Shown here one piece after another: positions 182 through 39,192 of a stretch of 64,000 nt of DNA. Where the stretch lies: contig JAIOPI010000004.1 in the NCBI GenBank assembly GCA_021413965.1, positions 124,001-188,000 of the forward strand, in the 5' to 3' direction. A model generated the notes under the pieces. The model saw only the letters and a program-made list of their open reading frames with translations. It ran no database searches and was not told where the DNA came from. Positions within the stretch are counted from its first letter, which is position 1, and each line of letters starts with the position of its first letter. A program made the translations under genes and the position numbers. The DNA comes from Lentisphaerota bacterium. Lineage in GTDB: Bacteria; Verrucomicrobiota; Kiritimatiellia; UBA8416; JAIOPI01.

Positions 182-195
182 ATCAATGGTTTGAT
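182..195. promoter_or_regulatory. Putative LacI-family operator (ATCAATGGTTTGAT)
   Basis: This is a perfect match to ATCAANNNNTTGAT. Read on the minus strand it is ATCAAACCATTGAT, identical to the sites at 20503, 34568 and 39179. It lies between the divergent left-edge secreted gene and the GH94-like gene and could control either. No good -10/-35 pair in the shared register was found here, unlike the other copies. Confidence 0.65.
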
Positions 196-255
196 TGACA
201 AGTTTACGCGCTTATGCGACGAGTAAGCATGCCGCCAACCCCCAGGAGGTGCCGC

Positions 256-2598
256 ATGGGACGCTACGGACAATTTTCCCCCGATGGACTCGAGTACGTC
301 ATCACGACGCCCCACACGCCTCGCGACTGGTTCAACTTCTTCTGGAACCCCACCTACTTGGCCTGCGTCGGCAACAGCCTGAACGGCTGCTCACTCTATC
401 AGAACGAAGCCGGCGTGGTGACCAACCTCTTCGGCAAGCAGGACATGCGCGAGGACCCGCGCTGGGTCTACGTCCGCGACAACCGCACCGGCGAAGTCTG
501 GTCCGCCGGCTATCTCCCCTGCCACACCGCGCACGAGGCGTACGAAGTCCGCAACGGCCTCGGCTACACCATCCTGCGCACGTTGAAGAACGGCATCCGG
601 GTGACGTTCCGCGTCTTCGTGCCGCGCCATCACGCCGGCGAACTCTGGACCATCACGGTCGCCAACGAAGGCCGAACCGCGCGCGACCTGTCCGTCTTCA
701 CCGTCGCCAACGTCATGCTGGATGGCGTCAACATGCCCTATGGCTACGTGGGAGGACTCAGCGCCGAGTTCCTGCCGCGGGACAACCTGCTCTTCTACAA
801 GAACATGACCTTCACCGTCGTGAATGAAAAGTTCCGCGCCTTCATGTACGCGGACGCCCCCATCGCCCGCTGGGACGTCTCCCGCGACCACTTTCTCGGC
901 CGCACCCGCAACTACGCCTGCCCCCAGCGCGTCGTGGACGGCAAACTGGGCAACTCCATCGCCGCCGCCGAATACCTCGTCGGCGCCATGCAGCACAATC
1001 TGAAGCTGGGCGCCGGCCGCGCGCGCACCATCAACGTCGTGCTCGGGATTGTGCTGAATCTCAAGGAGGCGCGGGCCATGGTCCGCGCCTTCAACAGCAC
1101 GGCAAAGATCGAGGCCGAGCAGGCCGCCATCCGGAAGGCCAACGTCCGCCGCCTCGGCGGGCTGAAACTGACGACGCCCGACGGCGATTTCAACCGCCTG
1201 TTCAGCGTCTGGCTCAAGCACGAGCTGTACCTGATGGCCGACTGGGCGCGGTTCTACTTCAAGGGCTTTCGCGATACCTGCCAGGATGCCGCGGGCATGA
1301 GCGTCATCAACCCGGACCGCGCGCTGCAGATGCTGAAGAAGGCCCTGCAGAACCAGCGCAGCGACGGCTTCGCCCCGCGCGCCTTCCGCGTGGCCAGCAT
1401 GGACATCGCCGCCGCGGACAAGCACTACTGCGACAGCCCGTCCTGGATCGCCCATGCCACTGACGCGATCCTGGCCGAGACCGGCAACCTCGCCCTGCTC
1501 GACGACGTCGTCCCCTATTCGGACCAGGGCCGCGGCAGCATCTGGGAGCACAACCTGCGCGCCCTGGAATTCCTCTGGAACGACCGCGGCGCCAACGGGC
1601 TGTCGCGAATTCATTACGGCGACTGGTGCGACCTCATCGACAAGGCCGGCTACAAGGGCAAAGGCGTCAGCATCTGGATGAGCTTCGCCCTGGCCCGCGT
1701 GCTGACACTGGTCGGCAACATCGCCGCCGCGCGCGGCGAGGCGCGGCTGGCCGCCACCTGCCGGCGGCGCTATGCCACCCTCGCCAAGGCCATCCGCCAA
1801 CACGGCTGGGATGGCGATCACTTTCTCTACGCCATCAACGACGACGGCCTCCGCATCGGCGCCGCGGACGCCGCGGAAGGCAAGTACTTCATCAACCCGC
1901 AGAGCTGGGCGATGCTGTCAGGCGTCATCAGCCCCGCGGTCTATCTGGCCATCACCCGCAAGTACGAGCCCAAGGTGGACACGCCCGTAGGCCCAGTCGC
2001 CTGCTGGCCCGCCTTCACCGCATACCAGCCCGGCATCGGTCAGCTCACGGGAACGCCCGCGGGCTTCTTCACCAACGGCAACGTCTACTGCCACGCCGGC
2101 GGGTTCAAGGTGGCCGCCGATTTCGAAGCCGGCCGGACGGAAAAAGCCTTCGACACCTTCATGCGCATCCTGCCGTCGGAGGACAAATCCGAACCCTACA
2201 GCCAGGCCAACGGCTACGTCGGCCCCACCGCCATGCGCATGCGCCGCCACGTGTCCGACGATCCCTGGCGCACCGGCACGGTGGCCTGGAATTTCCTCAA
2301 TGGCGTGGACCGGCTGCTCGGCTTCCGCCGCGAACTCGCCGGCGTGCGCATCCGCCCCCTGATCCCCGCCCGGTGGTCGCACGTCGCCTACGAGCGCCCC
2401 TTCCGCGGCACGACCTTCGCGGTAGAAATCCGCCGCGGCGCGAAACCCGGCCTCACCGTCGACGGCGTTCCGATCGACGGCGACCTGATTCCCGTTGGCC
2501 CCGCCGGCTTGGGCGCGAAACGGGTGAAGGTGGTTTGCACGCTGAAAGCAGCTCGCGTGGACGCTCGCCCTCCACGAGATCGGACCGGTGCGGCGTGA
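256..2598 (+). CDS. GH94-family (glycosyltransferase 36-like) disaccharide phosphorylase
   Basis: The 780-residue product looks like a cellobiose/chitobiose phosphorylase-type enzyme, which would reversibly phosphorolyse a beta-linked disaccharide in the cytoplasm; no signal peptide is visible. An N-terminal beta-sandwich region is followed by an (alpha/alpha)6-barrel carrying the family hallmarks GFRDTCQD, HYCDSPSW and HYGDWCDL (family consensus types RDxxQD, YSDDHLW, YGDWND). The Asp of YCDSP, near residue 393, is the expected general acid. The start at 256 is chosen because AGGAGG at 244-249 sits six bases before it. The last 15-20 codons are encoded by the left arm of a palindromic repeat (2551-2630), so the natural C-terminus may have been altered. 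An operator lies 60 bp upstream. The exact substrate cannot be read from sequence. Confidence 0.8.
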   Translation: MGRYGQFSPDGLEYVITTPHTPRDWFNFFWNPTYLACVGNSLNGCSLYQNEAGVVTNLFGKQDMREDPRWVYVRDNRTGEVWSAGYLPCHTAHEAYEVRNGLGYTILRTLKNGIRVTFRVFVPRHHAGELWTITVANEGRTARDLSVFTVANVMLDGVNMPYGYVGGLSAEFLPRDNLLFYKNMTFTVVNEKFRAFMYADAPIARWDVSRDHFLGRTRNYACPQRVVDGKLGNSIAAAEYLVGAMQHNLKLGAGRARTINVVLGIVLNLKEARAMVRAFNSTAKIEAEQAAIRKANVRRLGGLKLTTPDGDFNRLFSVWLKHELYLMADWARFYFKGFRDTCQDAAGMSVINPDRALQMLKKALQNQRSDGFAPRAFRVASMDIAAADKHYCDSPSWIAHATDAILAETGNLALLDDVVPYSDQGRGSIWEHNLRALEFLWNDRGANGLSRIHYGDWCDLIDKAGYKGKGVSIWMSFALARVLTLVGNIAAARGEARLAATCRRRYATLAKAIRQHGWDGDHFLYAINDDGLRIGAADAAEGKYFINPQSWAMLSGVISPAVYLAITRKYEPKVDTPVGPVACWPAFTAYQPGIGQLTGTPAGFFTNGNVYCHAGGFKVAADFEAGRTEKAFDTFMRILPSEDKSEPYSQANGYVGPTAMRMRRHVSDDPWRTGTVAWNFLNGVDRLLGFRRELAGVRIRPLIPARWSHVAYERPFRGTTFAVEIRRGAKPGLTVDGVPIDGDLIPVGPAGLGAKRVKVVCTLKAARVDARPPRDRTGAA

Positions 2599-2630
2599 TT
2601 CAGCAACTGGAGGGCGGGCGTCCCTCGAGC
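2551..2630. repeat. Palindromic repeat, family A copy 1
   Basis: Imperfect inverted arms at 2551-2574 and 2608-2630 (left arm contains GGACGCTCGCCCTCCA, right arm TGGAGGGCGGGCGTCC) surround a 33-base centre. The same arms, apart from one inserted base, occur as a perfect 24-bp stem at 16254-16322. Here the left arm forms the 3' end of the GH94-like reading frame, whose stop codon lies in the loop. Confidence 0.8.
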
Positions 2631-2647
2631 CGCCTGGGCCTACAACG

Positions 2648-5600
2648 ATGAAGCGCACAACCATCTCCCTGAATGGCATCTGGACCATCGCCTTCGACCC
2701 GGCAAACACCGGCAAGGCCGCGCGCTGGCAGGAGCATTTTCCCGCCGGCGGCCAGGCGCTGCCGGTGCCCGGCGTCTGGGAACTGGTCCGGCCAAATTAT
2801 GACGGCGTGGCCTGGTACCGGCGCACCTTCACCGTGCGCCCCGCATGGCTGGCCGGCGTGGTGCGGCTCACCTTTGGCGCCGTGCACTACTTCAGCGAAA
2901 CCTATCTCAACGGCCGCCTCGTCGGAACCCATGAAGGCGGCGGCTCGCCGTTCGCCTTCGACGTGACCCAACACCTGGTGCCGGGCGAGAACGTGGTGAC
3001 GCTGCGCGTGATCGGGCCGCCGGGCGATCGCGCCATCGAGGGGTTTCGCGCAGGCGCGCCGCTGAACCAGAGCGACCTGCCCGTCGGCAAGGCCGCGTGG
3101 TATTTCAACTACGGCGGGATCTGGCAGGACGTCGCGCTGGTCATCACCCCCCGCTGCTACCTCGAGTCCATCTACATCAAACCGTTCCCGCGTCGGCGCC
3201 GCGCGCAGGTCATCGCCACCATCGTGAACCGGGGCCCGGCCGCGCGGTACACGCTGGACGTGGCCGTGGTCGAAGACGCTTCCGGCCGCCGCGTGCGACA
3301 GGTCCGCAAAACCGTCCGGCTCAAAACCGGCGTCAACGAGGTCTCCCTCCCGGTCGCGTTTCCGTCGGTCCGGTGCTGGAGCTGCGACGACCCGTTCCTG
3401 TACCGGGCCGTGGCCACGCTCGGCACAGATCGCCTCGCCGCGCGCTTCGGCATGCGCGAATTCACCATCCGCGGCGGCGCCTTCGTCCTCAACGGCCGGC
3501 GCATCACCCTCAAGGGCTTTCTGCACCAGGGCCTCTATCCCCGCACGCTCATCTTCCCCGCCGACCGCGCCATGGGCCGCCGGGAGCTCGCGCTCATCAA
3601 GGCGCGCGGCTTCAATTTCATCCGCGCCCATCTGCGCGCGCCAGATCCCTGGTGGCTCGACCTGTGCGACGAGCTCGGCCTCCTCGTCGAGGCCGAGCCC
3701 GGCATCGGCTGGATCTGCAACAGCGCCGAAACCGAGCGCCGCTGCTGGACGGAAATCGAAGCCCTGCTGCGGCACGATCGCAACCACCCCAGCATCGTCT
3801 TCTGGTGCCTGCTGAACGAGGCCTATCACTTCCTGGGCTTCACGATGCCCGAAATCAAGGCGATGACGGCGCGCCTCGCCGCCGCGGGCCGCAAGCTCGA
3901 CGATACGCGGTTGCTGATGGACACTTCGGGCGGCGGCGGCAACGGCAGCGCGGACGGTGGCGCGCTGGTGTGGCTGCCGCACGTGGCCCGCCGCGCGGCC
4001 ATGACCGACGACCACCCGTACTGCGAGCTGCCGCTGCAGGACGCCTCCATCGTCAAGTACCGCACGATGGGCAGGCGCGGCGTGCCGCTGCTGATCAGCG
4101 AATTTGGCGCGCCGCTCGCGCCGCCGGACTATCGCAAGGTGCTGGCCGCCTACAGCCCGGCCGAGCGCCGGCGCGGACTCGAGGATTATGTCCTGTACCG
4201 CGACTTCTGGGCTTCGCTCCAGGCGGGCTTTCGCCGGGCGGGCCTCAAGCGCGCGTTCGGCTCGCCCGATGCGTTCATCGCCGCGATCGACCGCGTGCGC
4301 GCCGATGAGATGCGCCTGGTGGTCGCGGCCCAGCGCTGCAATCCCGCGCTGGTCGGCACCACGTTCTGCCAGTTCGCCGACGCCAGCGGCGAGGAATTCG
4401 GCGCGACGGATTTCTTCCGCCGTCCCAAACAGATCCTGCAAGGGCTCACCGACGCCATCCAGACCCCGCTCATCGCACCCGAAATCCTGCCGCGCGTGCA
4501 GATCGCCGGACAGCGCTCCCGCGTGCGGCTCACGCTGGTGAACGAGAACCAGCTGGGCGCGGCCTACCGCTTTGACGCGGACATCTTCACGGCCGCCGGC
4601 AGGCGCGTGCGGCGCCTCGCCTCCGGCACGGTCCGCGCGACGCGCCATGTGCAAACTCTGCTGGTCCGCGCCATTGCGCCCGAGCTGAAACCCGGGGCCT
4701 ACGTGCTCCGCGCCACGCTCACCGCCGGCACGGCGCGCCAGCCGTTCCGCTCCGCCGCCGTGGCCTTCACGGTCCTCGCCGCCCCGGCGCCCACGCTGCG
4801 GGCGACCAGCGTCTGGGATCCCGACGGCGCGATCGCGCCCTTCTTCGCGCGCCACGGCGTGGCCTGCATCCCCTTCAGCAACAACTTCCGCGACAAGCGC
4901 ATGCCCGTCGTGATGGACATGCGCCGCTGGAACGCGCTCGACCGCTGGATGCTGTTCGAGGTCCACGCCCAGGTGAAGAAGATCGTCCAGACCGGCGGCG
5001 TGGCGATCCTGATCAACCCCGAGCCCCTGCTGCTCCAGGACTTCCTGATGGACTGCCGGCTTCGCCCCGCGCGCCACATGCGCACGCTCGGTTACATCCT
5101 GAAGCATCCTATTTTCAACGGCCTGCCGGCGGGCGGCGTCGCCGATTACGTCTACGCCGGAATCTTCCCGAGCTCGTTCGAGCGGGGCGAAGACGTGCGC
5201 GCCGCGGGTGGCGAGGTGCTTGCCGGCGGGTTGAGCGGACACATGTGGACGCGCCCCGCCGACTACGTCTGGGGGGCCGGCGTGTACCGCCTGCCGCTAG
5301 GGCGTGGCGAGCTGCTGTGCTGCCAGATGCGCATCCTCGACGACCTCGCGACCAACGCCACCAGCCAGACGCTCCTCGCCAACCTGGCCGACCACGCCGC
5401 CTCCCGGATCAAACCCGGCCTCGAACACCTGCTCTTCAGCCGCTGCATCGACCCCCTGCAGCCAGCCGATTACGCCCCTGCGAAGTCGGAAATCAGGAAG
5501 CCAGGAAGGCAGGAACGGACGGTCCTCAGCCATCTTTGCGACGACAGCTCGCGCCATCGACAAGCGCTCAACAACGCGATCCCCTCCCCCGGAGGGGTGC

Positions 5601-5674
5601 CCGCCAGGGCGGGGTGGGTTCCGCGGAACACCTTTCCGGCACGGCTTTCACGCAGAGCCCGCAATGCTACATAG
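2648..5674 (+). CDS. Glycoside hydrolase family 2 (beta-galactosidase/beta-glucuronidase type)
   Basis: The protein (1008 residues) begins with the GH2 jelly-roll sugar-binding domain (LNGIWTIAFDP, about 1-180), then an Ig-like domain, then a TIM barrel from about residue 285. The acid/base Glu is in FWCLLNEAY (about residue 391) and the nucleophile in LLISEFGAP (about residue 485). A further beta domain and a large alpha/beta C-terminal region without an assigned function follow. No clear signal peptide is present, so a cytoplasmic enzyme acting on imported oligosaccharides is likely. It is 49 bp downstream of the GH94-like gene, separated by a palindromic repeat. Roughly the last 35 codons run through an intergenic repeat (from 5567) and are probably not native. 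Substrate specificity is unknown. Confidence 0.87.
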   Translation: MKRTTISLNGIWTIAFDPANTGKAARWQEHFPAGGQALPVPGVWELVRPNYDGVAWYRRTFTVRPAWLAGVVRLTFGAVHYFSETYLNGRLVGTHEGGGSPFAFDVTQHLVPGENVVTLRVIGPPGDRAIEGFRAGAPLNQSDLPVGKAAWYFNYGGIWQDVALVITPRCYLESIYIKPFPRRRRAQVIATIVNRGPAARYTLDVAVVEDASGRRVRQVRKTVRLKTGVNEVSLPVAFPSVRCWSCDDPFLYRAVATLGTDRLAARFGMREFTIRGGAFVLNGRRITLKGFLHQGLYPRTLIFPADRAMGRRELALIKARGFNFIRAHLRAPDPWWLDLCDELGLLVEAEPGIGWICNSAETERRCWTEIEALLRHDRNHPSIVFWCLLNEAYHFLGFTMPEIKAMTARLAAAGRKLDDTRLLMDTSGGGGNGSADGGALVWLPHVARRAAMTDDHPYCELPLQDASIVKYRTMGRRGVPLLISEFGAPLAPPDYRKVLAAYSPAERRRGLEDYVLYRDFWASLQAGFRRAGLKRAFGSPDAFIAAIDRVRADEMRLVVAAQRCNPALVGTTFCQFADASGEEFGATDFFRRPKQILQGLTDAIQTPLIAPEILPRVQIAGQRSRVRLTLVNENQLGAAYRFDADIFTAAGRRVRRLASGTVRATRHVQTLLVRAIAPELKPGAYVLRATLTAGTARQPFRSAAVAFTVLAAPAPTLRATSVWDPDGAIAPFFARHGVACIPFSNNFRDKRMPVVMDMRRWNALDRWMLFEVHAQVKKIVQTGGVAILINPEPLLLQDFLMDCRLRPARHMRTLGYILKHPIFNGLPAGGVADYVYAGIFPSSFERGEDVRAAGGEVLAGGLSGHMWTRPADYVWGAGVYRLPLGRGELLCCQMRILDDLATNATSQTLLANLADHAASRIKPGLEHLLFSRCIDPLQPADYAPAKSEIRKPGRQERTVLSHLCDDSSRHRQALNNAIPSPGGVPARAGWVPRNTFPARLSRRARNAT

Positions 5675-10106: not shown

Positions 10107-12070
10107 CTACGGTGAGTTTCTCGCACAACGTAGGCCGATGTAACGATCGGTGCGGGAGGCGTACCAGCCAAGATGCACGGCTGACTCGATGCCAGACGAG
10201 CTTACGCCCCAACAGCCTTGCCGGAAGGTGCGTTCGGTCCCGGAAGTAGGGCCAACTGGGTCGGTAACCGAATCGCTGGAGTACTTGGTGTACCAGTCCC
10301 AGCACCACTCGCCCACATTGCCACACATGTCGTAAATTCCGAGTTGGTTCCCTCGTTTCGTGCCAACAGGACGAGTCCCATTTCGGCTGTTCTCCCAGTA
10401 CCATGACACCTCGATGGAAGCGTTGGTATCTGTGTGTGGGCCGCCGGCCCCACTTGCGTAATTGCCCGGGGTCCAACTGTAACCGTCGATATGGCGTGCT
10501 GCGCATTCCCACTCCGCCTCAGTCGGCAAGCGGTATCCGTCGGAGTCTCGCTTGAAGACAGCGCTGTCGCAGGCGGTGGCGTTGGCGTCGCGGGAATCGC
10601 GTATGACTTGGTTGGTGTACGTATAGACCGGCGCGAGGGATTCCTTCTCCGAACGCGCGTTGCACCAGACAATGCAATCGCGCCAACTGACATAGGTTAC
10701 GGGTTCACCGCGAGCGGCCGTCGGCGCGGCGCCAGCAGTCCCATCGTTTCCCTCGCGACCGGCGTTCTGAAAGTTGTAGCCATTAGCCAGCGCCCACTGC
10801 CGCACCACGTACCATAGGGCGTAGGTCACTTCGTGCCTGGCGAGGAAGTAGGGGCTGATGGTCACTTCGTGCTCGGGGCTCGAATCGCCGAAGTCAATGT
10901 TGGTGCAGCCCATCATAAATGTCCCGCCAGGTACAAGTACCATGTTGGCGGGCGCAGGCATGGTGAGCGAAAGCCACTGCCCACCGTCGTATCCCTGAAA
11001 GTCCGTCCCCGTCCAGCGGATCATTCCGGCTGCTGGGGGTGGATTCACCGCATGTCCGAGCTTGATCGCCCCCGCCAGCGCCGCACTGCCGTCACTGGAG
11101 ACCCGCATCTTCTCGCTGAACGTGGCCCCATCCCACGAGCCAACGGACAGGTGCCCGCTGGCGTGTGTTCCAAAGTACAGGCTGTTCTCATAGCCGTTCC
11201 CGCTCATGTCCACGCCGAACCCGACCTTGTTGTCGGTGCGACCATCTTCGTAGGTCCGAATCTTGGCCCCGCTACCGGTACCCAGGTCGAGCCGCGATTG
11301 CGGAGTCGTCGTGCCCACACCAATATGCCCGCCGCTTGCCACCATGGCACCGCCGCTGACCTTGGCCAGCGATGCGGCATCGGCCGCCAATGCCTCCGAG
11401 TCGATGCTCCCATCGGACACGGTCGCGGCCATCATCGCGTATCCCACCGCCGCGATCCGCTGATCGGGGACTAGTAGCTGCATCCCGCGCCCGCCATCGA
11501 ACCACACGCGCAGCCGCACGTCGGGGTTGGCAAACACGGCGGTGGGATCGGTTCCATGGGCGCTTGGCCCAGTAGAACCGCATAAAGCCCCTTGCTCACA
11601 GACACACTTATCGCACCGGTTCCACTGTCCCAGAACGTGCGATAGGCTGGCGGCGGCGGATCGATCGTCACCGCGGGATCGGAGGTGTACCCTCCGCCGC
11701 CCTGCAGGACCTCGACACTCGTGACCGCGCCACCCACCACCACCGCCCGGGCAGCGGCCCCGGACCCGCCGCCCCCCGTGATGGTGACGCCGGGCGCCAC
11801 GACATACCCCGCCCCTCCGTCGGTCACTTCATACGACGTAACGACCGCCCCCGTCCTATGCGCAACCGCCGCGGCCCCCCGCGCCAGCACGTCACCCCCA
11901 TCCACCAGCGCGAACTTGAACAGCCCGTTGCCGGTGAGGTTAATCCCGTTGTCGTCGACGCGGCCCTGATAGTTGATAATGCCAAGGACTTGAGCCAAAG
12001 CGGCGCAAGGCACGACCATCGCCAGCAGCATAAGAGCCGCCTCCACTACACGCTCCCGCCTCCGCTTCAT
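10107..12070 (-). pseudogene. SUMF1-domain secreted protein, paralog 1, frameshifted
   Basis: Two overlapping frames together reconstruct one protein homologous to the intact genes at 13288-15537 and 16638-18533. The 5' part (12070 to about 11545) encodes a signal peptide, the INYQGRV domain and two glycine-rich GGxGY repeats up to [17 protein letters not shown]. The 3' part resumes in another frame at [13 protein letters not shown] and continues through a tail-fibre-like segment (VGVGTTTPQSRLDLG) to a SUMF1/FGE-like domain ([12 protein letters not shown] ... [10 protein letters not shown] ... NVGEWCWDW). A one-base indel near 11540-11548, within GATCCCACCGCCGTG, joins them. It could be a real mutation or a sequencing error. 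The SUMF1 domain lacks the paired catalytic cysteines of true formylglycine-generating enzymes, so a binding or structural role is more likely. Confidence 0.8.
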
Positions 12071-12265
12071 GGCTCCAGTCCTCAGCTTCGTTTTTCGGGC
12101 CAGGAAATCGAACGTAAGGCCATTTCCCGATGCCAGAAACCACTTATCCTGTTCCACCTCTAACACTTACCGTGGTCCGACCTCGATCACCCATCGCAAA
12201 AACACGTACTTTGAACTGTCCGATGCCGGTTTAGTTCGCACCAATCGCGTTTCATGGCGTCGGCG

Positions 12266-13114
12266 TCACAGGAGGGGAAACGAGCGGATGAAATCCGTTA
12301 TTGATCGGCGAAGCAGAATCCTCGCACGCAGCAACCCACAAATCTTTCCCGACAATGCCCCAAAGACCACAAAGGTAAATCCCACGACTGCCCATTCGTG
12401 AACAGATCTAGTGGGTGCATGTGAACTGGCCACCATATGGGCAATGAAGATTACGGAGGCACACAGAACGCCCAATTTGCCCTCCCTGCAACCGCATGCA
12501 ACCAAGTAGCGATCTATACTTCTCTGTAGTACCTGACAGTGCCCCTCGTCCAGATGCGGGAAGCAGAGTTGTACGGGTTCAGGAAACAGGCGATGCCACT
12601 TTACGATGTCCTCCAGCTGTTCGATGCTTGAGACCTTCACCACCGATTGTCGCACAAAGTTATAGCGTACAGACATTCCGGCATCGCCCCTACTCCCGGA
12701 CTTGGCAACTGATGTTGTTCTCGAAGCGGGGTGGCCGGCACTGTCCGATGTCATCGCGGATACTTCGGTGGTTACGGTGGTGTTTCCGCAGCTTCTGGCG
12801 CAATTGCTGATACAACTCGGCTTCCCAAAACATCCCATCCAACAGATTGTGGTGCAAAGAAGGCACAAGATGGTAAACACCGCGCAGACGAGAATGAACA
12901 CAATCGTGACGATTAGCCACACGATGACGGTTACGACGGCAACTATCACCAAGACTATCCAACACAGCCACTTGTTGCAGCACAAGCACCACCAATTGCA
13001 CTCTTGTTCCGCACAAACCGTCCACGTCTTCTGAACCCATGTCCATATATATTGCACAAACCAGTTGAAGATCGACGACACTACTGTCCAGCATCTGGTA
13101 CATCCTGAGTACAT
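12266..13114 (-). CDS. Trp/Cys-rich multi-pass membrane protein of unknown function
   Basis: About 282 residues with a striking N-terminal region: TRCWTVV, FVQYIWTWVQKTWTVC and ECNWWCLCCNKWLCW, followed by a long hydrophobic run (IVLVIVAVVTVIVWLIVTIV) and LLCTTICWMGCFG, giving over a dozen Cys and many Trp in about 90 residues. A polar Ser/Thr-rich linker follows, then a second domain with the motif LVACGCREGKLG and two more membrane segments. The start at 13114 is preferred over 13150 because GGGGAG lies nine bases upstream of it. The local base composition is visibly less GC-rich than the neighbours, suggesting transfer. It separates two SUMF1 paralogs on the same strand. No family was recognised with confidence. 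Confidence 0.55.
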   Translation of the reverse strand: MYSGCTRCWTVVSSIFNWFVQYIWTWVQKTWTVCAEQECNWWCLCCNKWLCWIVLVIVAVVTVIVWLIVTIVFILVCAVFTILCLLCTTICWMGCFGKPSCISNCARSCGNTTVTTEVSAMTSDSAGHPASRTTSVAKSGSRGDAGMSVRYNFVRQSVVKVSSIEQLEDIVKWHRLFPEPVQLCFPHLDEGHCQVLQRSIDRYLVACGCREGKLGVLCASVIFIAHMVASSHAPTRSVHEWAVVGFTFVVFGALSGKICGLLRARILLRRSITDFIRSFPLL

Positions 13115-13287
13115 AGTTACTTTCTCCCCTCCGTCGGCATCACAAGTCACATCACAAACCGTGAAAGTGGCGCCAGTGATCGCCGTTCTAGGTTCTTCTG
13201 TTGCTTCCTGTCATGCCGGACAAAACACACATAGTCTGCGTGTTGGCACTTGCGCGTCCGCCGGATTCGCCGCGTGTGCTTGCATAG

Positions 13288-15537: not shown

Positions 15538-15669
15538 CTAACGCTTGCCTCCCATCAGGAATGCAACTTTGTCCAGCGTCGGCGGCATGTTCCGCTGCGT
15601 CCAGACATGGGACAAGAAGTTAGATTTAGCCTAGGGCTAAGTGCGCGACATGGAGCGTGAAGCGGATTT

Positions 15670-16322: not shown

Positions 16323-16350
16323 GTTCCTGGGAACGCCCGGATTTAGTACG

Positions 16351-30171: not shown

Positions 30172-31677
30172 TCAGCGCAGGTCGCACACGTTTCGGAAGG
30201 CCGCGCCCGCCGCCGTGGGTGGATCCGCCTGGACGAAGCGGAACACCGTCGCCGCATCCATGGCGCGGCCCAGGACGCGGACTTCCGGCAGGGCGAGCGC
30301 ACACTGGTCATCCGTCGCACCGCCCTCCGCCGCGCGCGTAATGCGCACGACTCGCCCGCGCACGCCGGGCGGCAGATCCACGGTCAGCGTCGCCGGTTCG
30401 TTTCCATTGTATTCGGCCGGCCCCCCGCCCAGAACGTTGCCGGGGTTCAACACCTCTGACGTGTACACGGCCTGCAGACTGTCGTCCAGCACCGCGATGG
30501 TGATGTCGCGCAGGCGGCCGGCATAGCCTGGCCGGTTATCGATGATGACGCGCGCGATGACGCTCGCCTGATCCAACTGCACCCGCCACCAGGGCGCCGT
30601 GTCCCCCGCATCCGTGTGCGCCATGTTGAGCGTGCTGATGAGGCCGTCGACGGCCTGGCCGGCGGTGAGATTCAATCCGTCGCGAGTCCAGGTCGAGCTC
30701 AGCATCGCGGGCCGGTCCAGCGCCAGGTTGACGTCCTGTCCGGCCACGCCCAGCGCGGAGAGAACAGCCACCTGGCTGTCGGGAATCAAGCCGCGTGTAT
30801 CCGGCGTCACGTCCAGCAGGTACGCCGCGAGCCGCGCGTTGGCGACATCGCGCTGCCCCAGCACCAGGTCGACGCTCTTGGTTGCGTCAGCGCCGGCGCT
30901 CCAGAACCACTTGCCGTCCGCGCGGATGGTCGCGCACAACTCCGCCGGAAATGCATTGCCCGCCGGGGGAAGCGGCGTTTGCTCGTACGTGCGGATATCC
31001 GTGTTGACCGCCGTGTGGTTGTTCTCCACCAGCAGCGTGGTCGGCGACAGCGCTTTGATGTGGTCGTAAACTTCCTGGTAAATCACGTACGCGTGCCAGG
31101 CCTTCCAGCCCCAGCCATCCGTCCAGATCACGTGGATCGGACCGTAATGACTGAGGAGATCCGTCAGCTCGGCCTTGACGTAATCGGTCGCCTGCCGGCT
31201 GGACAGCGTGCTGCCGTCGATCCCGTTGGACCGGTCCCAGATCGAGTAGTAGAGGCCGACCTTCAAGCCTCGCGCACGGTAGGCGTCGGCAAAGCGACGG
31301 ACGATGTCCCCCCGGCCTGCCGGCTGGCTGCCGAACCAGACCGTGCTCGCCACGTCGTAGCTGGACAGCGCCGTATCCCACAGGGCGAAGCCATCGTGGT
31401 GCTTGGCTGTCAGGACGCCGTAGGTCATGCCGGCCGACTGGGCTGCCGCCGCCCACTGATCCGGGTCCAGCGCGGTGGGGGCAAACGTGTTGATCGGCCG
31501 GTTCGGCGAGGCCCATTCTTCGCCCGTGAACGTGCCCATGTTGAAATGCACGAACTGGCCGAATTTGTGGTCCACATAATCCTGCTGTAACTCGGGCAGC
31601 GTCTGGGCCTGCGCCTGCGCTCCCAGGACGAACGCGGCGACGACGCCGATCAGCAGATCCCCGGACGCGATCCTCAT
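30172..31677 (-). CDS. GH29 alpha-L-fucosidase with C-terminal F5/8-type carbohydrate-binding domain (1)
   Basis: A 501-residue secreted enzyme that would release alpha-L-fucose. Signal peptide LLIGVVAAFVLGAQAQAQ, then the GH29 barrel: MGTFTGEEWASPNRPINTFAP, YGVLTAKHHDGFALWD, KVGLYYSIWDRS and VIWTDGWGWKAW, whose Asp near residue 187 is the expected nucleophile. From about residue 350, NLALDRPAMLSSTW...WWRVQLDQASVIARVIIDNR...GRLRDITI is a discoidin/CBM32-47-type lectin domain. The start at 31677 follows AGGAGG (complement of 31683-31688) by five bases. It is divergent from the isomerase gene with an operator between them. A close paralog lies at 32673-34370. Confidence 0.9.
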   Translation of the reverse strand: MRIASGDLLIGVVAAFVLGAQAQAQTLPELQQDYVDHKFGQFVHFNMGTFTGEEWASPNRPINTFAPTALDPDQWAAAAQSAGMTYGVLTAKHHDGFALWDTALSSYDVASTVWFGSQPAGRGDIVRRFADAYRARGLKVGLYYSIWDRSNGIDGSTLSSRQATDYVKAELTDLLSHYGPIHVIWTDGWGWKAWHAYVIYQEVYDHIKALSPTTLLVENNHTAVNTDIRTYEQTPLPPAGNAFPAELCATIRADGKWFWSAGADATKSVDLVLGQRDVANARLAAYLLDVTPDTRGLIPDSQVAVLSALGVAGQDVNLALDRPAMLSSTWTRDGLNLTAGQAVDGLISTLNMAHTDAGDTAPWWRVQLDQASVIARVIIDNRPGYAGRLRDITIAVLDDSLQAVYTSEVLNPGNVLGGGPAEYNGNEPATLTVDLPPGVRGRVVRITRAAEGGATDDQCALALPEVRVLGRAMDAATVFRFVQADPPTAAGAAFRNVCDLR

Positions 31678-31770: not shown

Positions 31771-31812
31771 TTGCGCCGACGGCGGCGATACGCCTATCAT
31801 CAAACGATTGAC
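31771..31812 (+). promoter_or_regulatory. Promoter with overlapping LacI-type operator, isomerase gene
   Basis: TTGCGC (31771-31776), an 18-bp spacer, TATCAT (31795-31800) and operator ATCAAACGATTGAC (31799-31812), one mismatch from the palindrome. It ends 18 bp before the isomerase start at 31831. It may also influence the divergent fucosidase gene, whose start is about 120 bp away. Confidence 0.6.
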
Positions 31813-31830: not shown

Positions 31831-32607
31831 ATGAACACACCCCCCATTGCGCTGCAACTTTATTCCGTCCGCGACGCCATCGCCCGGCAGGGCTACGACG
31901 CGGTTGTCCGCCAGGTGGCGGCCATGGGGTATGCGGGAGTCGAAACGGCGGGCTTCCCGGGCACGACGCCCCTGGCGGCCGGCCGGCTCTTTCACGACCT
32001 GGGCTTGACCGTGTGCAGCATCCATTCCTTCCCGATCCCCACCGATGCGCACCAGGCCGAGATCCTCGACACGCTGGCGGCGCTCGGCTGCCGGGTGGTC
32101 GTCACCGGCGCCGGCCCCGAGGACTTCTCGACGCAGGCCAGCACCATGGCCACCTGCGAGAAGCTCAACGCCGCCGCCGCCCTCTTCAGGCCTGCCGGGG
32201 TCCGGCTGGGGGTGCACAACCATTGGTGGGAGTTTCTGCCGGTCGACAGCGGCAAGCGCGCCTACGAACACATGCTCGAGTGCCTGTCCCCCGATGTCTT
32301 CTTCGAGATCGACACGTACTGGGTGAAGACCGGCGGCGCCGATCCTGCACAGGTGGTGCGGCAGCTCGGCCCGCGCGCCCCCTTCCTGCACATCAAGGAC
32401 GGCCCGGCGCAGCGCGGCGTACCCCAGCTTCCGGCCGGCTCAGGCGTGCTGGACTTCCCCGCCGTGGCCAATGCCGCCGAGCACACCGAGTGGATGATCG
32501 TGGAGTTCGATTCCTGCGCCACCGACATGCTCGACGCCGTTCACGCCAGCTACGCCTACCTGACAGGCGCAGGGCTGGCGCACGGAGCCGCGCAGGTTAT
32601 TCGGTGA
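31831..32607 (+). CDS. Sugar phosphate isomerase/epimerase (xylose isomerase-like TIM barrel)
   Basis: A 258-residue cytoplasmic TIM-barrel protein: IALQLYSVRDAIARQGYDAVVRQVAAMGYAGVE at the N-terminus, GVRLGVHNHWWEF (metal-site His/Glu), CLSPDVFFEIDTYWVKTGG, PFLHIKDG and MIVEFDS. These are the hallmark blocks of the COG1082/AP-endonuclease-2 fold sugar isomerases. GGGAG precedes the ATG by four bases. Divergent from fucosidase 1 and convergent with fucosidase 2, under an operator. It probably processes a sugar released by the island's glycosidases, though the exact substrate is unknown. Confidence 0.83.
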   Translation: MNTPPIALQLYSVRDAIARQGYDAVVRQVAAMGYAGVETAGFPGTTPLAAGRLFHDLGLTVCSIHSFPIPTDAHQAEILDTLAALGCRVVVTGAGPEDFSTQASTMATCEKLNAAAALFRPAGVRLGVHNHWWEFLPVDSGKRAYEHMLECLSPDVFFEIDTYWVKTGGADPAQVVRQLGPRAPFLHIKDGPAQRGVPQLPAGSGVLDFPAVANAAEHTEWMIVEFDSCATDMLDAVHASYAYLTGAGLAHGAAQVIR

Positions 32608-32672: not shown

Positions 32673-34370
32673 CTACGGGACACGTTCGGCGCGGATGAAC
32701 AGAACGCCGGCAAGCCCGAGTTCGAGCCGGACCGCGGCGACCCCGTTGACATCCGTCACCACGGCATCGCCCTCCGGACTGATGTCCCCGGGATCGCCGC
32801 CGGGGTTCGCTTGCCAGAGCCCCGTGACGCGCCGCGCCGCCGCGAAATCGGGCGTCGCGCTGTGCATCAGCCGATACGCCGTGTCGGCCTCGCCCTGGAG
32901 CGTCAGCTCCGCAGCCCCGGTGGCCGGATCGTGGCGAAGCGCCGTCACCTTCAGCCCGGACTCAAGCGCCAGGACGCGCACTTCGGGCAGGGTCAGCACG
33001 TACTGGTCCTCGGCGTCGGCGCCTTCCGCCGCCCGGCTGATGCGCACGTATTGCCCCCGGATTCCCTCCGGCAGTTGCAGGCGAAGCGTTGCCGGTTCGT
33101 CGCCGCGGTAGGAGTCCGCGCCACCCCCCAGAACATTGCCGGGATTCAGCAGCCCGGACGTATAGACGGCTTGCGTGCTCGCGTTCAGGACTTCGATCGT
33201 GAGGTCGCGCAGCCGGCCCGCGAATCCGGCACGGTTATAGATGACCACGCGGTCAATTCGGCTCTGTCGCTGCAAGTCCACCCGCCACCACGGCGCGAGG
33301 TCCCCCACCCCCGTGTGGGCCATGGTGGCCGCGTCGAGCGCGCCGTCCACCGCTTGATCGGCCGTGAGCGTGACGCTGGCGGACGTCCAGGTCGAACTCT
33401 GCACCGCCGGCCGATCCAGCGCGAGATTGCGATACCGGACCGCGGCGCCGATCTCGGCCAGCACGGCCAGCTGCGAATCGGGAATCAGCCCGCGCGCGTC
33501 GGGGGTGACATCCAGCAGGTAGGCCGCCCGGCGCGCGTTGGCCACGTCCCGCTGCCCCACCAGCATGTCCACGCTCTTGGTGCGGTCGGCGCCGGCGCTC
33601 CAGAACCACATGCCGTCCGCCCGGATCGTCGCGCACAGCTCCGCGGGAAACGTATTCCCGGCCGGCGGCAGCGGCGTCTGCTCGTAGGTGCGGATGTCTG
33701 TGTTGACGGCCGTGTGGTTGTTCTCCACCAGCAGCGTGGTCGGCGACAGCGCTTTGATGTGGTCGTAAACTTCCTGGTAGATCACGTACGCATGCCAGTT
33801 CTTCCAGCCCCACCCGTCCGTCCAGATCACGTGGATCGGGCCGTAATGACTGAGCAGATCCGTCAGCTCGGCCTTGACGTAATCGGTCGCCTGCCGGCTG
33901 GTCAGCGTGTGGCCGTCGATCCCGTTGGACCGGTCCCAGATCGAATAGTAGAAACCGACCTTCAAACCGCTCGCCCGAAAGGCGTCAGCAAAGCGCCGGA
34001 CGATGTCCCCCTGTCCGGGAGGCTGCTGGCTGAACCAGGTCGTCGCGCTCACATCGTAGCCGGACTGCGCGGTGTCCCAGAGTGCAAAGCCGTCGTGGTG
34101 CTTGGTCGTCAGGACGCCATACGTCATGCCGGCGGACTTGGCGGCAGCCGCCCATTGCTCGGGATCCAGCGCCGTTGGGGCGAAGGTGTCGACCGGCCGG
34201 TTCGGCGACGCCCACTCTTCGCCCGTGTAGGTGCCCATGCTGTAATGCAGGAACAGGCCGAGTCCCTGATCGACGTAGGCCTGCTGCAGGTCCGCGAGGG
34301 TCTGAGCCTGCACCGACGCGCCCAGCGCCATCCCGGCGATCGCCACCAGCCGTACCCATAACCGCCCCAT
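32673..34370 (-). CDS. GH29 alpha-L-fucosidase with C-terminal F5/8-type carbohydrate-binding domain (2)
   Basis: A 565-residue paralog of the enzyme at 30172-31677, with the same order: signal peptide (LVAIAGMALGASVQAQ), GH29 barrel (MGTYTGEEWASPNRPVDTFAP, HHDGFALWD, VIWTDGWGWKNW) and lectin-type domain (NLALDRPAVQSSTW...WWRVDLQRQSRIDRVVIYNR). It has an extra C-terminal stretch of about 65 residues (ELTLQGEADTAYRLMHSATPDF...ELGLAGVLFIRAERVP) resembling the terminal beta domain of Verrucomicrobiota exoproteins. Start 34370 is placed before the signal peptide. An operator lies 53-66 bp upstream. Confidence 0.9.
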   Translation of the reverse strand: MGRLWVRLVAIAGMALGASVQAQTLADLQQAYVDQGLGLFLHYSMGTYTGEEWASPNRPVDTFAPTALDPEQWAAAAKSAGMTYGVLTTKHHDGFALWDTAQSGYDVSATTWFSQQPPGQGDIVRRFADAFRASGLKVGFYYSIWDRSNGIDGHTLTSRQATDYVKAELTDLLSHYGPIHVIWTDGWGWKNWHAYVIYQEVYDHIKALSPTTLLVENNHTAVNTDIRTYEQTPLPPAGNTFPAELCATIRADGMWFWSAGADRTKSVDMLVGQRDVANARRAAYLLDVTPDARGLIPDSQLAVLAEIGAAVRYRNLALDRPAVQSSTWTSASVTLTADQAVDGALDAATMAHTGVGDLAPWWRVDLQRQSRIDRVVIYNRAGFAGRLRDLTIEVLNASTQAVYTSGLLNPGNVLGGGADSYRGDEPATLRLQLPEGIRGQYVRISRAAEGADAEDQYVLTLPEVRVLALESGLKVTALRHDPATGAAELTLQGEADTAYRLMHSATPDFAAARRVTGLWQANPGGDPGDISPEGDAVVTDVNGVAAVRLELGLAGVLFIRAERVP

Positions 34371-34422: not shown

Positions 34423-34466
34423 ATCAAGCGATTGATTATCGTACCTGCCGGCACCACGCATCACAA
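34423..34466 (-). promoter_or_regulatory. Promoter with overlapping LacI-type operator, fucosidase 2
   Basis: On the minus strand: TTGTGA (34466-34461), a long 20-bp spacer, GATAAT (34440-34435), and operator ATCAATCGCTTGAT (34436-34423), a perfect match to ATCAANNNNTTGAT. The -10 box overlaps the operator by two bases, as at the other sites. The -35 assignment is weak. Confidence 0.55.
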
Positions 34467-34540: not shown

Positions 34541-34581
34541 TTGCAACAGGTGTTGCCATGTCTTAACATCAAACCATTGAT
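34541..34581 (+). promoter_or_regulatory. Promoter with overlapping LacI-type operator, upstream of deleted remnant and CBM protein
   Basis: TTGCAA (34541-34546), a 17-bp spacer, TAACAT (34564-34569) and operator ATCAAACCATTGAT (34568-34581). Transcription runs through the remnant gene at 34642 and on to the CBM protein at 34847. Confidence 0.65.
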
Positions 34582-34846: not shown

Positions 34847-37800
34847 ATGAAGCGGGTGGCGTTGTTGGCGGTGCTGCTGCTGGCCGGGGCCCATGGGGCA
34901 TGGTGCGTCGAAGTGCTCAATGGCAGCTTTGAGGACGGGACGAACAGCTGGACCGTGTCAGCCAGCGATACCAACCCGCCCGCCTGCGCGGTGGGCGACA
35001 GCGAGGGCTGCACCGACGGCACGTATGCGATGGCGCTCAGCGGCCTCAACCTGGCCGGCAATGCCGTGCTGGAGCAGACACTGGCCACCGTGTCGGGCGC
35101 CGTGTACGCGGTCAGGTTCGACCACGGGGCTTTCGCCAACGCCGGCCGGGCCCAGGTGCTGCGAGCGGAGGCGCTGGACGGCGCCACGCTGTTGGCCGGC
35201 CTGACCGTAACAGCCTTCGGACCGGGCAGTGCCAGCGCCGCCTTCACCACCCGAACAAACACCTTCACCGCCGCCTCCGCCTTCACCACCATCCGCTTCA
35301 TTGACCAGACCACGCTCGCCAACAGCCAGAACTGTGATGGCCTGCTGGATCGCGTGCGCGCCAGCGGCACCGTCGCGGTTCCCGTGATCGCTCCCTACGG
35401 CGGCCTGCATGCCGGCCCGGTTGAGGTCACGCTCAGCTGCGCCACCGAGGGCGCCCAGATCGCCTACACGCTGGACGGCCTGACGCCCACCACCAACAGC
35501 CCCGCATACGGCACCCCGTTTACCCTCTCGTCGAACGCCACCGTCAAAGCCCTTGCCTGGATGGACGGCCTGGATGACAGTGCGGTGGCCAGCGCCGTCT
35601 TCACCATCAGCGATCTGCCGCTGGTCGCCACGCCCACCATCGCCCCCAACGGCGGCGAATACCTTGAGGAGGTCGACGTCACGCTCGCCTGCGCCACCGC
35701 GGGCGCCGCCATCCGCTACACGACCGACGGCAGCGCGCCCGCCACCAACAGCGCCACCTACAGCGCCCCGCTTGTCCTCACGTCGGACGCCACCGTCAAG
35801 GCCATCGCCTCGATGGCCGGAATGGCCGACAGCGACTTGGCCAGCGCGGCGTTCCGCGTGCTTCCGCCCGGAAGCGTCCGCAACGGCAGCTTCGAATCTG
35901 GCACCAATGGCTGGACCGTGACGGCCACCGACGCCAACCCGCCCGCCTGCGCCGTGGACAGCAGCGCCGGTGCGAGCGATGGCACCAACGCGATGGTCTT
36001 CGGCAGGCTCAACGCGCCGGGCAACGGCGTGATCGAGCAGGCGCTCACCACCGTGTCCGGGGCCGTGTACACGGTGTGGTTTGACTACGCCGTCTTCGGC
36101 CTCAGGAACAAGACGCAGGCGCTGCGCGCAGAGGCGCTCGACGGCGCCACCGTGCTGGCCGCGCGTGACGCCACAGCCGTTAGCGCCGTCGATGTGCTCG
36201 ACCCCGCCGCCGTCGTGTTTCGCCCGCAGTCCAACACCTTCAGCGCCGTCTCAGCCTCAACCCTCATCCGCTTCACCGACCAAACCACGCCGGCGAACGG
36301 CACCAGCGGCGACGGGGCGCTGGACGCCGTGCACATCACCGGCATGGTGGCGGCGCCGGCGATGTCGCCGGACGGCGGCATGCATGTCGGCAGCGTGGAC
36401 GTCACGCTGACCTGCGCCACCGATGGAGCCACCATCGCCTACACCACCGATGGCAGCGCGCCCGGCACCAACAGCACCCCCTACACCGCGCCCTTCACGC
36501 TCACCTCAAACACCACGGTCAAGGCCGTGGCCTGGCGAACGGGCCTCGCCGACAGCGCCGTCTCCAGCGCGACCTTCACCGTCACCCCGATGCCCCTGGT
36601 GGCCACCCCAACCATCACGCCGGACGGCGGCGCCTTCCTGGACCTGGTTGACGTCACCCTGGCTTGCGACACGCCGGACGCCACCATCGCCTACACCACC
36701 GATGACAGCACGCCCACCACCAACAGCGCCGCCTACAGCGCGCCGCTGTCCCTGACCTCGAACACCACGATCCGCGCCATGGCCTGGAAAGCCGCCATGA
36801 GCGACAGCGCGGTCACCAGCGCCACGTTCGCGATCTTCTCCGACGTCCTCACGCCCACGATCTCGCCCGACGGCGGCCCGATCACCGGGAGCGTCACGGT
36901 CACCCTCGCCTGCGACACCCCGGGCAGCACGATCCGCTATACCAGCGACGGCAGCGACCCCGGCTCCGTCGCCGGCACGTACCTGGCCTACTCCGCGCCG
37001 TTCCGAATGGGCAGCGGCACCGTGAAGGCCTACAGCACCCACGGCGGCTACACCAACAGCGCCGTGGTCAGCGCCACCTTCTCCAACAGCGTGGACGAGA
37101 GCTGGGCCGGGATCGCCCTCCCCGGCCGCGTGGAGGCCGAACACTATCGCGCCGGCGAGGAAGGCAGCGCCTACCACGACGTGGATCCCGCCAACAACGG
37201 GCACGTCTACCGCGCCGACGGCGTCGACCTCCAGCCCTGCGACGATGCCGGCGGCGGCTACAACGTCGGCTGGACCGTCTTCACTGAATGGATGGAATAC
37301 GACATCCACGTGACCCATGCCGGCGATTACGACTTCATCTTCCGGCTCGCCTCCGCCGCGGCCGGAATCAAAACCGTCAGCGCCCTGGTCGACTCCGTCA
37401 CGGTCGCCACGGTCGACATCCCCTACACCAACGGCTACGAGCACTACCACGATGCGATGATCGCCGGGGTCCCCCTGGCGGCCGGCGACCACGTGTTGCG
37501 CGTCTACTTCAACACGCCGAACCTGACGTTCAACTACCTCGACATCACCACCCGGACGGCGCGGATCGCCGTGCCGGGCCGCATCGAGGCCGAGAACTTC
37601 AAACCCGGCGGGCAGGGCGTCGGCTACTTCGAGAACCTGCCCCACCGCAACGTCAACCTCGGCGGCGCCTACCGTCTCGCCGAGGGCGTCGACATCGAGA
37701 CCTGCCGCGACAGCGGCGGCGGCTACAATGTCGGCCATACCGACCTGGCCGGCGAATGGCTGGCCTACAACATCCGCGTCGCTCGCGGCGTCCCGCATGA

Positions 37801-38050
37801 CATCACCTTCCGCGTCGCCTCGGCCACCGAAGGCATCAAGACGCTCCGCGCCGAAGTGGACGGCTTGCCCGTGGCCACGGGGACGTTCGACTTTGCCGAT
37901 GGCTGGCAGGCCTTCCACGATGTGACCATCCGGGGTGTCCAGCTGGCGGCGGGCGACCACGAACTGAAAATCCTCTTTGACACCGAGAGCATCAACCTCA
38001 ACTATGTGGACATCACCGAGTACTCCGGCATGATGATTGTGATCAGATAG
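34847..38050 (+). CDS. Large secreted multi-domain carbohydrate-binding protein (1)
   Basis: A 1067-residue exported protein: signal peptide (VALLAVLLLAGAHGAWC), a 'NGSFEDGTNSWT' beta-sandwich (DUF642/CBM4-like), two chitobiase/beta-hexosaminidase C-terminal repeats (type TPTIAPNGGEYLEEVDVTL...IRYTTDGSAP), a second NGSFESGTNGWT domain, three more chitobiase-type repeats, then two CBM6/35-like domains (LPGRVEAEHYRAGEEG... and VPGRIEAENFKPGGQG...). No catalytic domain is seen, so it probably binds polysaccharide at the cell surface. GGAGG (34837-34841) fixes the start. The LacI gene follows 9 bp downstream. The paralog at 39284 has the same architecture with more repeats. Confidence 0.83.
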   Translation: MKRVALLAVLLLAGAHGAWCVEVLNGSFEDGTNSWTVSASDTNPPACAVGDSEGCTDGTYAMALSGLNLAGNAVLEQTLATVSGAVYAVRFDHGAFANAGRAQVLRAEALDGATLLAGLTVTAFGPGSASAAFTTRTNTFTAASAFTTIRFIDQTTLANSQNCDGLLDRVRASGTVAVPVIAPYGGLHAGPVEVTLSCATEGAQIAYTLDGLTPTTNSPAYGTPFTLSSNATVKALAWMDGLDDSAVASAVFTISDLPLVATPTIAPNGGEYLEEVDVTLACATAGAAIRYTTDGSAPATNSATYSAPLVLTSDATVKAIASMAGMADSDLASAAFRVLPPGSVRNGSFESGTNGWTVTATDANPPACAVDSSAGASDGTNAMVFGRLNAPGNGVIEQALTTVSGAVYTVWFDYAVFGLRNKTQALRAEALDGATVLAARDATAVSAVDVLDPAAVVFRPQSNTFSAVSASTLIRFTDQTTPANGTSGDGALDAVHITGMVAAPAMSPDGGMHVGSVDVTLTCATDGATIAYTTDGSAPGTNSTPYTAPFTLTSNTTVKAVAWRTGLADSAVSSATFTVTPMPLVATPTITPDGGAFLDLVDVTLACDTPDATIAYTTDDSTPTTNSAAYSAPLSLTSNTTIRAMAWKAAMSDSAVTSATFAIFSDVLTPTISPDGGPITGSVTVTLACDTPGSTIRYTSDGSDPGSVAGTYLAYSAPFRMGSGTVKAYSTHGGYTNSAVVSATFSNSVDESWAGIALPGRVEAEHYRAGEEGSAYHDVDPANNGHVYRADGVDLQPCDDAGGGYNVGWTVFTEWMEYDIHVTHAGDYDFIFRLASAAAGIKTVSALVDSVTVATVDIPYTNGYEHYHDAMIAGVPLAAGDHVLRVYFNTPNLTFNYLDITTRTARIAVPGRIEAENFKPGGQGVGYFENLPHRNVNLGGAYRLAEGVDIETCRDSGGGYNVGHTDLAGEWLAYNIRVARGVPHDITFRVASATEGIKTLRAEVDGLPVATGTFDFADGWQAFHDVTIRGVQLAAGDHELKILFDTESINLNYVDITEYSGMMIVIR

Positions 38051-38059
38051 AAGGCACCC

Positions 38060-39067
38060 ATGGTGGCCCTGCGGGATATAGCGAAAGCAGTTGGCGTGTC
38101 CGTGTCGCTAGTCTCGAAAGTGCTCAACAACCGCCTTGGCACGACCGGGGTGAGCGCCGACACCATCGCCACGGTGCGCCTCACGGCCGAGAAGATGGGC
38201 TACCGCAAGAACGCCTCGGCCGTCGCCCTTCTGGCCGGCCGCCACAACATCGTCGGCGTCTACATCCACTGCCTCGGCATGGCTGGCAGCGGCATTCTCG
38301 AGGAGCTGCTGGGGGGCATCTCCACCGCGGCCCACCAGAACCATCAGCGCCTGCAGCTGAATTTCTTCATCACCGCGGATGAGTTCCATGCGCTCTGCGA
38401 GGGCGCCCACAAGGGCGCGATCGATGGCCTCGTGGTCGGCGGCGTGCTCCACGAGGACCTCGCCGGCCGGCTGAGCGACATCCGCGCGACCGGCCTGCCC
38501 GTGGTCACCATTTACGACAAGTCGGCCGCCCCTTCGCTGACCAACGTGGGGCTGGACCAGGTCCGCGTCGCGCAGCTGGCCACGTCCCACCTGATCGAAC
38601 GCGGATCGCGCCGGATCGCCCATATCCGCAACATGGACGACCGCTACGATGGCTACCGGCGGGCGCTGGCCGCCGCCGATATCCCCTATGACGCGTCGCG
38701 GGTTTTCGATGCCCGCACTCTCGACTACGGCCACGTCACGGGCGAACAGGCGGTGGAGGCGTTCCTGGGACGCGGCGTGGTCTTCGACGGACTCGTGGCC
38801 CAATCCGACCAGGAGGCCATGGGCGCCATGAACCTGCTGTTCCGGCGCGGTTTCAACGTGCCCGATGACGTCCGGTTGATCGGCATCGACAACGCGCCCT
38901 ACTGCGACTTTGCCCGCGTGCCCCTCAGTTCGGTGTCTCAGAACTACCGGCTCAGGGGCGAGGAAGCCATGCGCCTGGTCCTGGATATGATCGCCGGCAA
39001 GCGCGTGCGCTCCACCGCCGTGAAACCCCTGCTGGTCGCGCGCGAATCGTCCCGGGCCGCCGAGTAG
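38060..39067 (+). CDS. LacI-family transcriptional regulator (1)
   Basis: 335 residues with the LacI helix-turn-helix at the N-terminus (LRDIAKAVGVSVSLVSKVLNNRLGTTGVS), hinge region (GYRKNASAVALLAGRHN) and periplasmic-binding-protein-like effector domain (IVGVYIHCLGMAGSGILEELLGGI ... DGLVAQSDQEAMGAMNLLFRRG ... VRLIGIDNAPYCDFARVPLSSVSQNY). It would bind a palindromic operator as a dimer, with DNA release or binding set by a sugar. It lies 9 bp after the CBM protein. The ATCAANNNNTTGAT sites in this island are its natural candidates. It may start at the GTG one codon later, matching the second paralog. Confidence 0.92.
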   Translation: MVALRDIAKAVGVSVSLVSKVLNNRLGTTGVSADTIATVRLTAEKMGYRKNASAVALLAGRHNIVGVYIHCLGMAGSGILEELLGGISTAAHQNHQRLQLNFFITADEFHALCEGAHKGAIDGLVVGGVLHEDLAGRLSDIRATGLPVVTIYDKSAAPSLTNVGLDQVRVAQLATSHLIERGSRRIAHIRNMDDRYDGYRRALAAADIPYDASRVFDARTLDYGHVTGEQAVEAFLGRGVVFDGLVAQSDQEAMGAMNLLFRRGFNVPDDVRLIGIDNAPYCDFARVPLSSVSQNYRLRGEEAMRLVLDMIAGKRVRSTAVKPLLVARESSRAAE

Positions 39068-39151
39068 CAACACCGCCGGCCGGCGCGCACGGCCACCCGG
39101 GACCCGCCCCCCCTGCCACATCGAAACCGCGCACATTTACACAAATTTCAC

Positions 39152-39192
39152 TTGCACCCCCTGGTCAATGACACTATCATCAAACCATTGAT
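39152..39192 (+). promoter_or_regulatory. Promoter with overlapping LacI-type operator, second CBM protein
   Basis: TTGCAC (39152-39157), an ideal 17-bp spacer, TATCAT (39175-39180) and operator ATCAAACCATTGAT (39179-39192). This is the clearest example of the shared architecture. The transcription start would fall inside the operator, consistent with repression. The CBM gene starts 91 bp downstream. Confidence 0.72.

Follow-up and report, generated by a model that had tools for sequence, protein, structure and literature searches.

What coordinates the many carbohydrate genes on contig JAIOPI010000004.1 (C29) of a Lentisphaerota bacterium from the class Kiritimatiellia, and do they answer to a regulator encoded among them? 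The stretch analysed here, referred to as the window, comprises 64,000 nucleotides (C29:124001-188000) of a 5.43-Mb genome that is assembled in 42 contigs and is 91.7% complete; positions without the C29 prefix are those of the window. The original prediction pointed to six copies of a 14-bp palindrome, typified by ATCAAACCATTGAT, between carbohydrate genes, to a fixed overlap of five of them with −10-like boxes, and to two LacI paralogs with identical hinges and near-identical recognition helices, which together were read as a local LacI regulon. All of these elements proved to be present, and the regulon reading is supported by the recurrence of the motif near relatives of the LacI genes and of other genes of the region in different genera and families. 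Judged from sequence, we assign a probability of about 85% to the reading that the palindromes are operators, bound by a local LacI-family repressor that is encoded as two sister genes in the same island and would repress the neighboring genes. Gene calls were heuristic, the Pfam scan covered 31 genes of the region, and operon structure is throughout deduced from strand and spacing.

The six window sites are located at 182-195, 20503-20516, 31799-31812, 34423-34436, 34568-34581, and 39179-39192; five are exact and the one at 31799 carries a single mismatch, whereas 100 dinucleotide shuffles of the window yielded a mean of 0.62 matches and in no case 6. The cluster extends 30 kb upstream of the window, with additional sites at C29:94290, C29:111478, and C29:116959, so that 9 sites are spread over 69 kb (C29:94290-163192). 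Genome-wide, the full 14-mer ATCAAACCATTGAT occurs at 6 exact places, all within C29:111478-163192, at no place with exactly one mismatch, and at 13 places with two mismatches, 3 of which are island sites. Exact matches to ATCAANNNNTTGAT number 13, including 8 inside the island, with the other 5 lacking a CC or CG center, and the reversed-pattern control has no match in the genome; one mismatch allowed in ATCAAWCSNTTGAT adds the window site at 31799 and only 5 places elsewhere. The center is CC at 6 of the 9 island sites and CG at 3, the refined motif being ATCAA-N-C[C/G]-N-TTGAT (ATCAANCSNTTGAT). A weight matrix built from the island sites and those of related genomes (see below) was scanned over 164 kb and gave the 9 island sites 22 to 26 bits and the tenth-best match 12.2; because the matrix was trained on these sites, it is the gap in score, not the rank, that counts as evidence. 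Two sites, C29:94290 and C29:116959, overlap the first codons of called genes, the starts of which are probably wrong. Thus, the motif is not distributed at chance frequency in coding sequence: the C[C/G]-centered form adjoins gene starts and is limited to a single carbohydrate locus that also holds the putative regulator.

The sites stand in a recurrent relationship to putative promoters. At 5 of the 6 window sites, the last two bases of a −10-like hexamer are the first two bases of the operator, in the predicted promoters TTGCCT-18-TATCAT (20475-20504, plus strand; hexamer at 20499-20504), TTGCGC-18-TATCAT (31771-31800, plus; 31795-31800), TTGTGA-20-GATAAT (34435-34466, minus; 34435-34440), TTGCAA-17-TAACAT (34541-34569, plus; 34564-34569), and TTGCAC-17-TATCAT (39152-39180, plus; 39175-39180). 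When the sites of this genome and of its relatives were considered together, the four bases preceding the operator plus its initial AT gave the best match to TATAAT among offsets −30 to +24. Because two of the six hexamer letters belong to the operator itself, the fair test scores only the four free bases: by this measure, 5 of the 9 island sites (4 in the window and C29:111478) match at least 3 positions of TATA, with TAACAT reaching 2 of 4, the other tested offsets do so at no more than 2 of the 9 sites, and a count of 5 never arises in 20,000 composition shuffles. A TTG at a spacer of 17 to 18 accompanies 5 of the 9 sites. For LacI-type repressors, an operator overlapping the −10 box is expected to cause steric repression, and the shared bases predict the same here, since a bound repressor would cover the promoter at 5 of the 6 window sites. 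The −35 elements at 20475, 31771, 34541, 39152, and C29:116959 also have CTTGC in common and are more alike than the generic TTGACA would lead one to expect, which could reflect either a preference for this −35 form at the locus or the binding of a second factor.

The candidate repressors are LacI-1 (38060-39067, plus), located between the last two sites, and its paralog LacI-2 (43401-44531, plus), which lies just behind the last site, 4 kb past it. The LacI helix-turn-helix (HTH) family PF00356 has 5 matches in the genome, 4 of them above the cut-off, and LacI-1 and LacI-2 are 2 of these 4, with 36.0 and 38.3 bits (cut-off 27); the sensor core, PF13377, scores 98.7 and 97.8 bits (cut-off 26.5). 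In the AlphaFold model of LacI-1 (pLDDT 93.7), the HTH and hinge helices are present, with the hinge helix predicted at residues 52-58 and its sequence identical in LacI-2, and the model matches repressor-DNA complexes of CcpA (1zvv, E 2.9e-23), PurR, and LacI. The two proteins are 71% identical overall and fully identical in the recognition helix (11/11, residues 13-23) and the hinge (14/14, residues 49-62). The defined residues of the signature VS.SLVSKV...R.G are either invariant or conserved to 90% or more among 43 aligned members. Other LacI proteins with 60% to 72% identity (P0124, P0125, and P0127-P0131) were also recovered. The gene upstream of LacI-1 has an operator in front of it (34568), as does the gene upstream of LacI-2 (39179), and spacing suggests co-transcription. 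The pair apparently arose by duplication of a unit consisting of a giant protein and a LacI gene, as the two giant proteins are 56% identical over 477 aa.

A search of 345 genomes of the class, including this one (E ≤ 1e-45), recovered the LacI subfamily in 14 other genomes with 20 genes, none labelled as belonging to the same order or closer; the three nearest genomes are 73% to 83% complete, so that loss, missing data, and transfer are indistinguishable. The refined motif occurs at 23 places in the 14 genomes, and 6 of these lie no farther than 10 kb from a subfamily LacI gene (1 in G094, 2 in G070, 2 in G343, and 1 in G137) compared with 0.16 expected (Poisson P 2e-8, with genome sizes rounded and the 10-kb distance set after the sites were seen). 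Three further LacI genes, G032:C79, G070:C11, and G343:C187, have a one-mismatch site. Nine of the 23 places flank homologs of genes of the region: LacI in 3 cases, the isomerase/epimerase-type gene 31831-32607 in G032 (44% identical, with the site about 50 bp upstream), the heparinase-like gene C29:99030-101726, also in G032 (44%), C29:119324-121297 in G343 (32%), C29:84793-87378 in G094 (35%), and, in G070 and G343, the L-arabinose/L-fucose-isomerase-like gene C29:87424-88893, which lies outside the window (about 60% to 63%). Of the remaining 14 places, 10 or more are inside open reading frames of at least 150 codons, as chance matches would be. By contrast, none of the 10 arm-only sites whose loci were compared, which lack the C[C/G] center, flanks these homologs; the genes matched there, namely C29:77523-79868, C29:194441-195679, and five in C29:176823-182988, all lie outside the cluster. 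The difference (9/23 versus 0/10; Fisher P 0.02) supports the regulon without being decisive alone. We also inspected the promoter register in 13 orientations of 11 of the relatives' places (9 beside homologs and 2 one-mismatch sites beside LacI genes): 6 orientations reach 3 of the 4 free bases, including 3 perfect TATAAT hexamers (G094, G137, and G032:C79), and 7 fall short. The G094 promoter reads TTGACA-16-TATAAT, its last AT being the first AT of the operator, and the order LacI, site, large protein in this genome is that of 38060, 39179, and 39284 in the window. In G152, a LacI relative adjoins a GH94 stretch 65% identical to the product of 256-2598, on a contig that ends before its promoter.

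Several observations weigh against the regulon as we read it. The site at 182-195 shows no −10 register in either direction (GAATAT and GTCAAT). The clustering of sites in the 69-kb island has a P of 8e-13, which is optimistic because the interval was picked once the sites were known. Of the 20 subfamily LacI genes in the relatives, only 4 lie within 10 kb of an exact refined site; those of G070:C111, G343:C34, and G087, which have nearly the same recognition helix, are not among them, and 5 of the 14 genomes contain no refined site at all. Neither C29:87424-88893 nor C29:84793-87378 has an operator in this genome, the isomerase-like case being the adverse one, and when the comparison with the arm-only sites is restricted to homologs of genes that carry an operator in this genome, or to non-LacI homologs (6/23 in each case), the Fisher P rises to 0.09. 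The large protein of G094 has Ig/cadherin-like domains and no homology match to the giant proteins of the window. Finally, the CC center prevailing in the island departs from the usual form of LacI-family operators: in the survey by Ravcheev et al. 2014 (PMC4052901), the center is CG for 1,173 of 1,303 transcription factors, with 49 different and 29 degenerate centers among the exceptions.

A rival reading is that the sites are operators of another regulator, with the LacI pair binding something else. A candidate is available in C29:84023-84769, roughly 10 kb away from the first site, which looks like an IclR-type protein by eye, or the regulator could be encoded elsewhere, and the 16 LacI genes in the relatives without a nearby exact site would fit such a scenario. 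However, the recurrence of the motif beside the LacI subfamily far above expectation, in relatives whose sites were not searched systematically for other regulators, and the even palindrome upstream of genes, which is the LacI-family form described in PMC4052901, make this explanation improbable. It is still harder to credit that the identical 14-mers are recent copies that tandem duplication or a repeat element has spread, without being kept by selection. The island does contain several duplicated gene pairs (the fucosidases, 74% identical, the large proteins mentioned above, and apiosidase-like proteins, 64% identical), but identity among the six identical 14-mers ends at the motif itself, pairwise agreement of the flanks being 4 to 17 of 30 bases upstream and 6 to 19 of 30 downstream with no long flanking homology, and in other families the same type of motif is found in genomes next to homologous genes.

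A variant that retains the LacI pair as the repressors is a two-input gate, in which both proteins occupy the same operators but respond to different sugars or form heterodimers with a mixed response. While the DNA-reading parts are identical, the sensor cores agree at 184 of 269 positions and differ at 85, and therefore two related signals are possible. Conversely, among positions with 80% or higher conservation in the subfamily, only two besides residue 1 differ between the proteins, and because nearly all conserved residues are kept in both, a common ligand is no less likely; we regard the gate as a tentative and rather unlikely refinement of the regulon.

The proposed regulon of two sister repressors resembles the local LacI sugar regulons described in PMC4052901 in its even palindrome upstream of genes, in a regulator encoded inside the controlled locus, and in its carbohydrate targets. 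Autoregulation, found for 72% of LacI-family regulators in that survey (Ravcheev et al. 2014, PMC4052901), is only predicted here. Unlike those regulons, the island combines a 14-bp core, nine sites over 69 kb, and two paralogous regulators predicted to share one operator set. ThuR and AglR of Rhizobiales, covered there as well, are related local regulators of the LacI family whose targets are similar but in which both motif and ligand have changed, whereas the island pair kept its DNA-reading parts identical. The repressor-operator complexes of LacI, PurR, and CcpA share the HTH, the hinge helix, and the periplasmic-binding-protein core with the island proteins at 22% to 27% identity, and in an alignment with Lactococcus lactis CcpA the recognition helix of the latter is followed by three additional residues.

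The genes next to the sites indicate what would be controlled. The first window site (182-195, ATCAAACCATTGAT, minus) separates the divergent genes C29:122829-124151 (minus, starting at window position 151), for a protein of an uncharacterized family, and 256-2598 (plus), which begins about 60 bp downstream and encodes a GH94 cellobiose-phosphorylase-like glycoside phosphorylase, likely in one transcription unit with a GH2 glycoside hydrolase (2648-5674, plus). The site at 20503-20516 (ATCAAACCATTGAT, plus) lies between 19010-20398 (minus), encoding a likely secreted protein of the same uncharacterized kind, and a sugar ABC importer composed of a solute-binding protein fused to a MalF/UgpA-like permease (20675-23329, plus) and a protein with a MalG-like permease at its C-terminus, residues 546-721 (23527-25716, plus); a GDSL-type esterase (25742-26731, plus) and a HEAT-repeat protein (26753-29104, plus) likely belong to the same unit. 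The fusion protein is 884 aa long and the MalG-like protein 729 aa, the first 500 residues of the latter having no Pfam match, and no ABC ATPase was found among the 31 scanned genes. At 31799-31812 (ATCAAACGATTGAC, CG center, plus), a GH29 alpha-L-fucosidase-like gene (30172-31677, minus) diverges from a sugar isomerase/epimerase-type TIM barrel gene (31831-32607, plus), and the site at 34423-34436 (ATCAATCGCTTGAT, CG center, minus) would serve the second fucosidase-like gene (32673-34331, minus). The last two sites, 34568-34581 and 39179-39192 (both ATCAAACCATTGAT, plus), precede the giant, likely secreted protein with CBM6/CBM35 and CHB_HEX_C_1 repeats (34847-38050, plus), directly upstream of LacI-1, and its counterpart (39284-43387, plus), directly upstream of LacI-2 and likely in one unit with it. 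Outside the window, C29:94290 separates divergent genes for a protein with CBM6 and one without a Pfam match, C29:111478 precedes an apiosidase-like/GDSL protein and a same-strand gene row including a heparinase-II/III-like protein, and C29:116959 is flanked by the genes of a second giant apiosidase-like protein and of a beta-helix protein.

The likely secreted family represented by 19010-20398 has six paralogs, the others being C29:82707-84026, C29:92068-94209, C29:104516-106642, C29:121511-122806, and C29:122829-124151, and five of the six fall in likely operator-controlled units. Two scanned members, 19010-20398 and C29:122829-124151, have no Pfam family match, and in two other paralogs the Pfam matches are confined to appended domains, CBM6 or CHB_HEX_C/Fn3-type. 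The family has 568 homologs at E ≤ 1e-3 among the scored candidates; its structural model is confident, with no PDB fold match at E ≤ 1e-3, and the helical half of the model bears only a faint likeness to polysaccharide-lyase barrels. Three related minus-strand proteins, 48% to 60% identical, are encoded at 10107-18494, inside the island and without an operator site.

Judged by family names only, the island looks like a locus devoted to a branched glycan that carries fucose-type ends. In the proposed scheme, a sugar set free from the target glycan would occupy the repressor core and jointly derepress the importer, the fucosidases, the phosphorylase, the isomerase, the esterases, and the large binding proteins; both LacI genes would be autoregulated, because each follows a large CBM-protein gene preceded by an operator. 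That the effector is a fucose-type sugar is a guess based on the two GH29 genes and the isomerase-like gene that is linked to sites in two relatives. The island thus likely harbors a local, autoregulated LacI regulon of a well-known type, unusual in the CC center of 6 of its 9 operators and in a repressor pair sharing one operator set. A bolder and doubtful proposal is that operator, giant binding protein, and repressor were duplicated in tandem and that the resulting sister repressors recognize the same nine operators through their identical DNA-reading parts while sensing different sugars or forming heterodimers, a two-input switch for the 69-kb island; in this view, the operator set would also mark the uncharacterized family as new carbohydrate-acting enzymes. 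In the literature collection searched, no paper joins "Kiritimatiell-" and "LacI family", and none of the titles listed by wider searches names such a regulon. For glycan use in the class Kiritimatiellia, the island provides an operator, two regulators, and a promoter arrangement that can be put to the test, and the operator, by suggesting which genes act together, points to a function for proteins that so far have none assigned.

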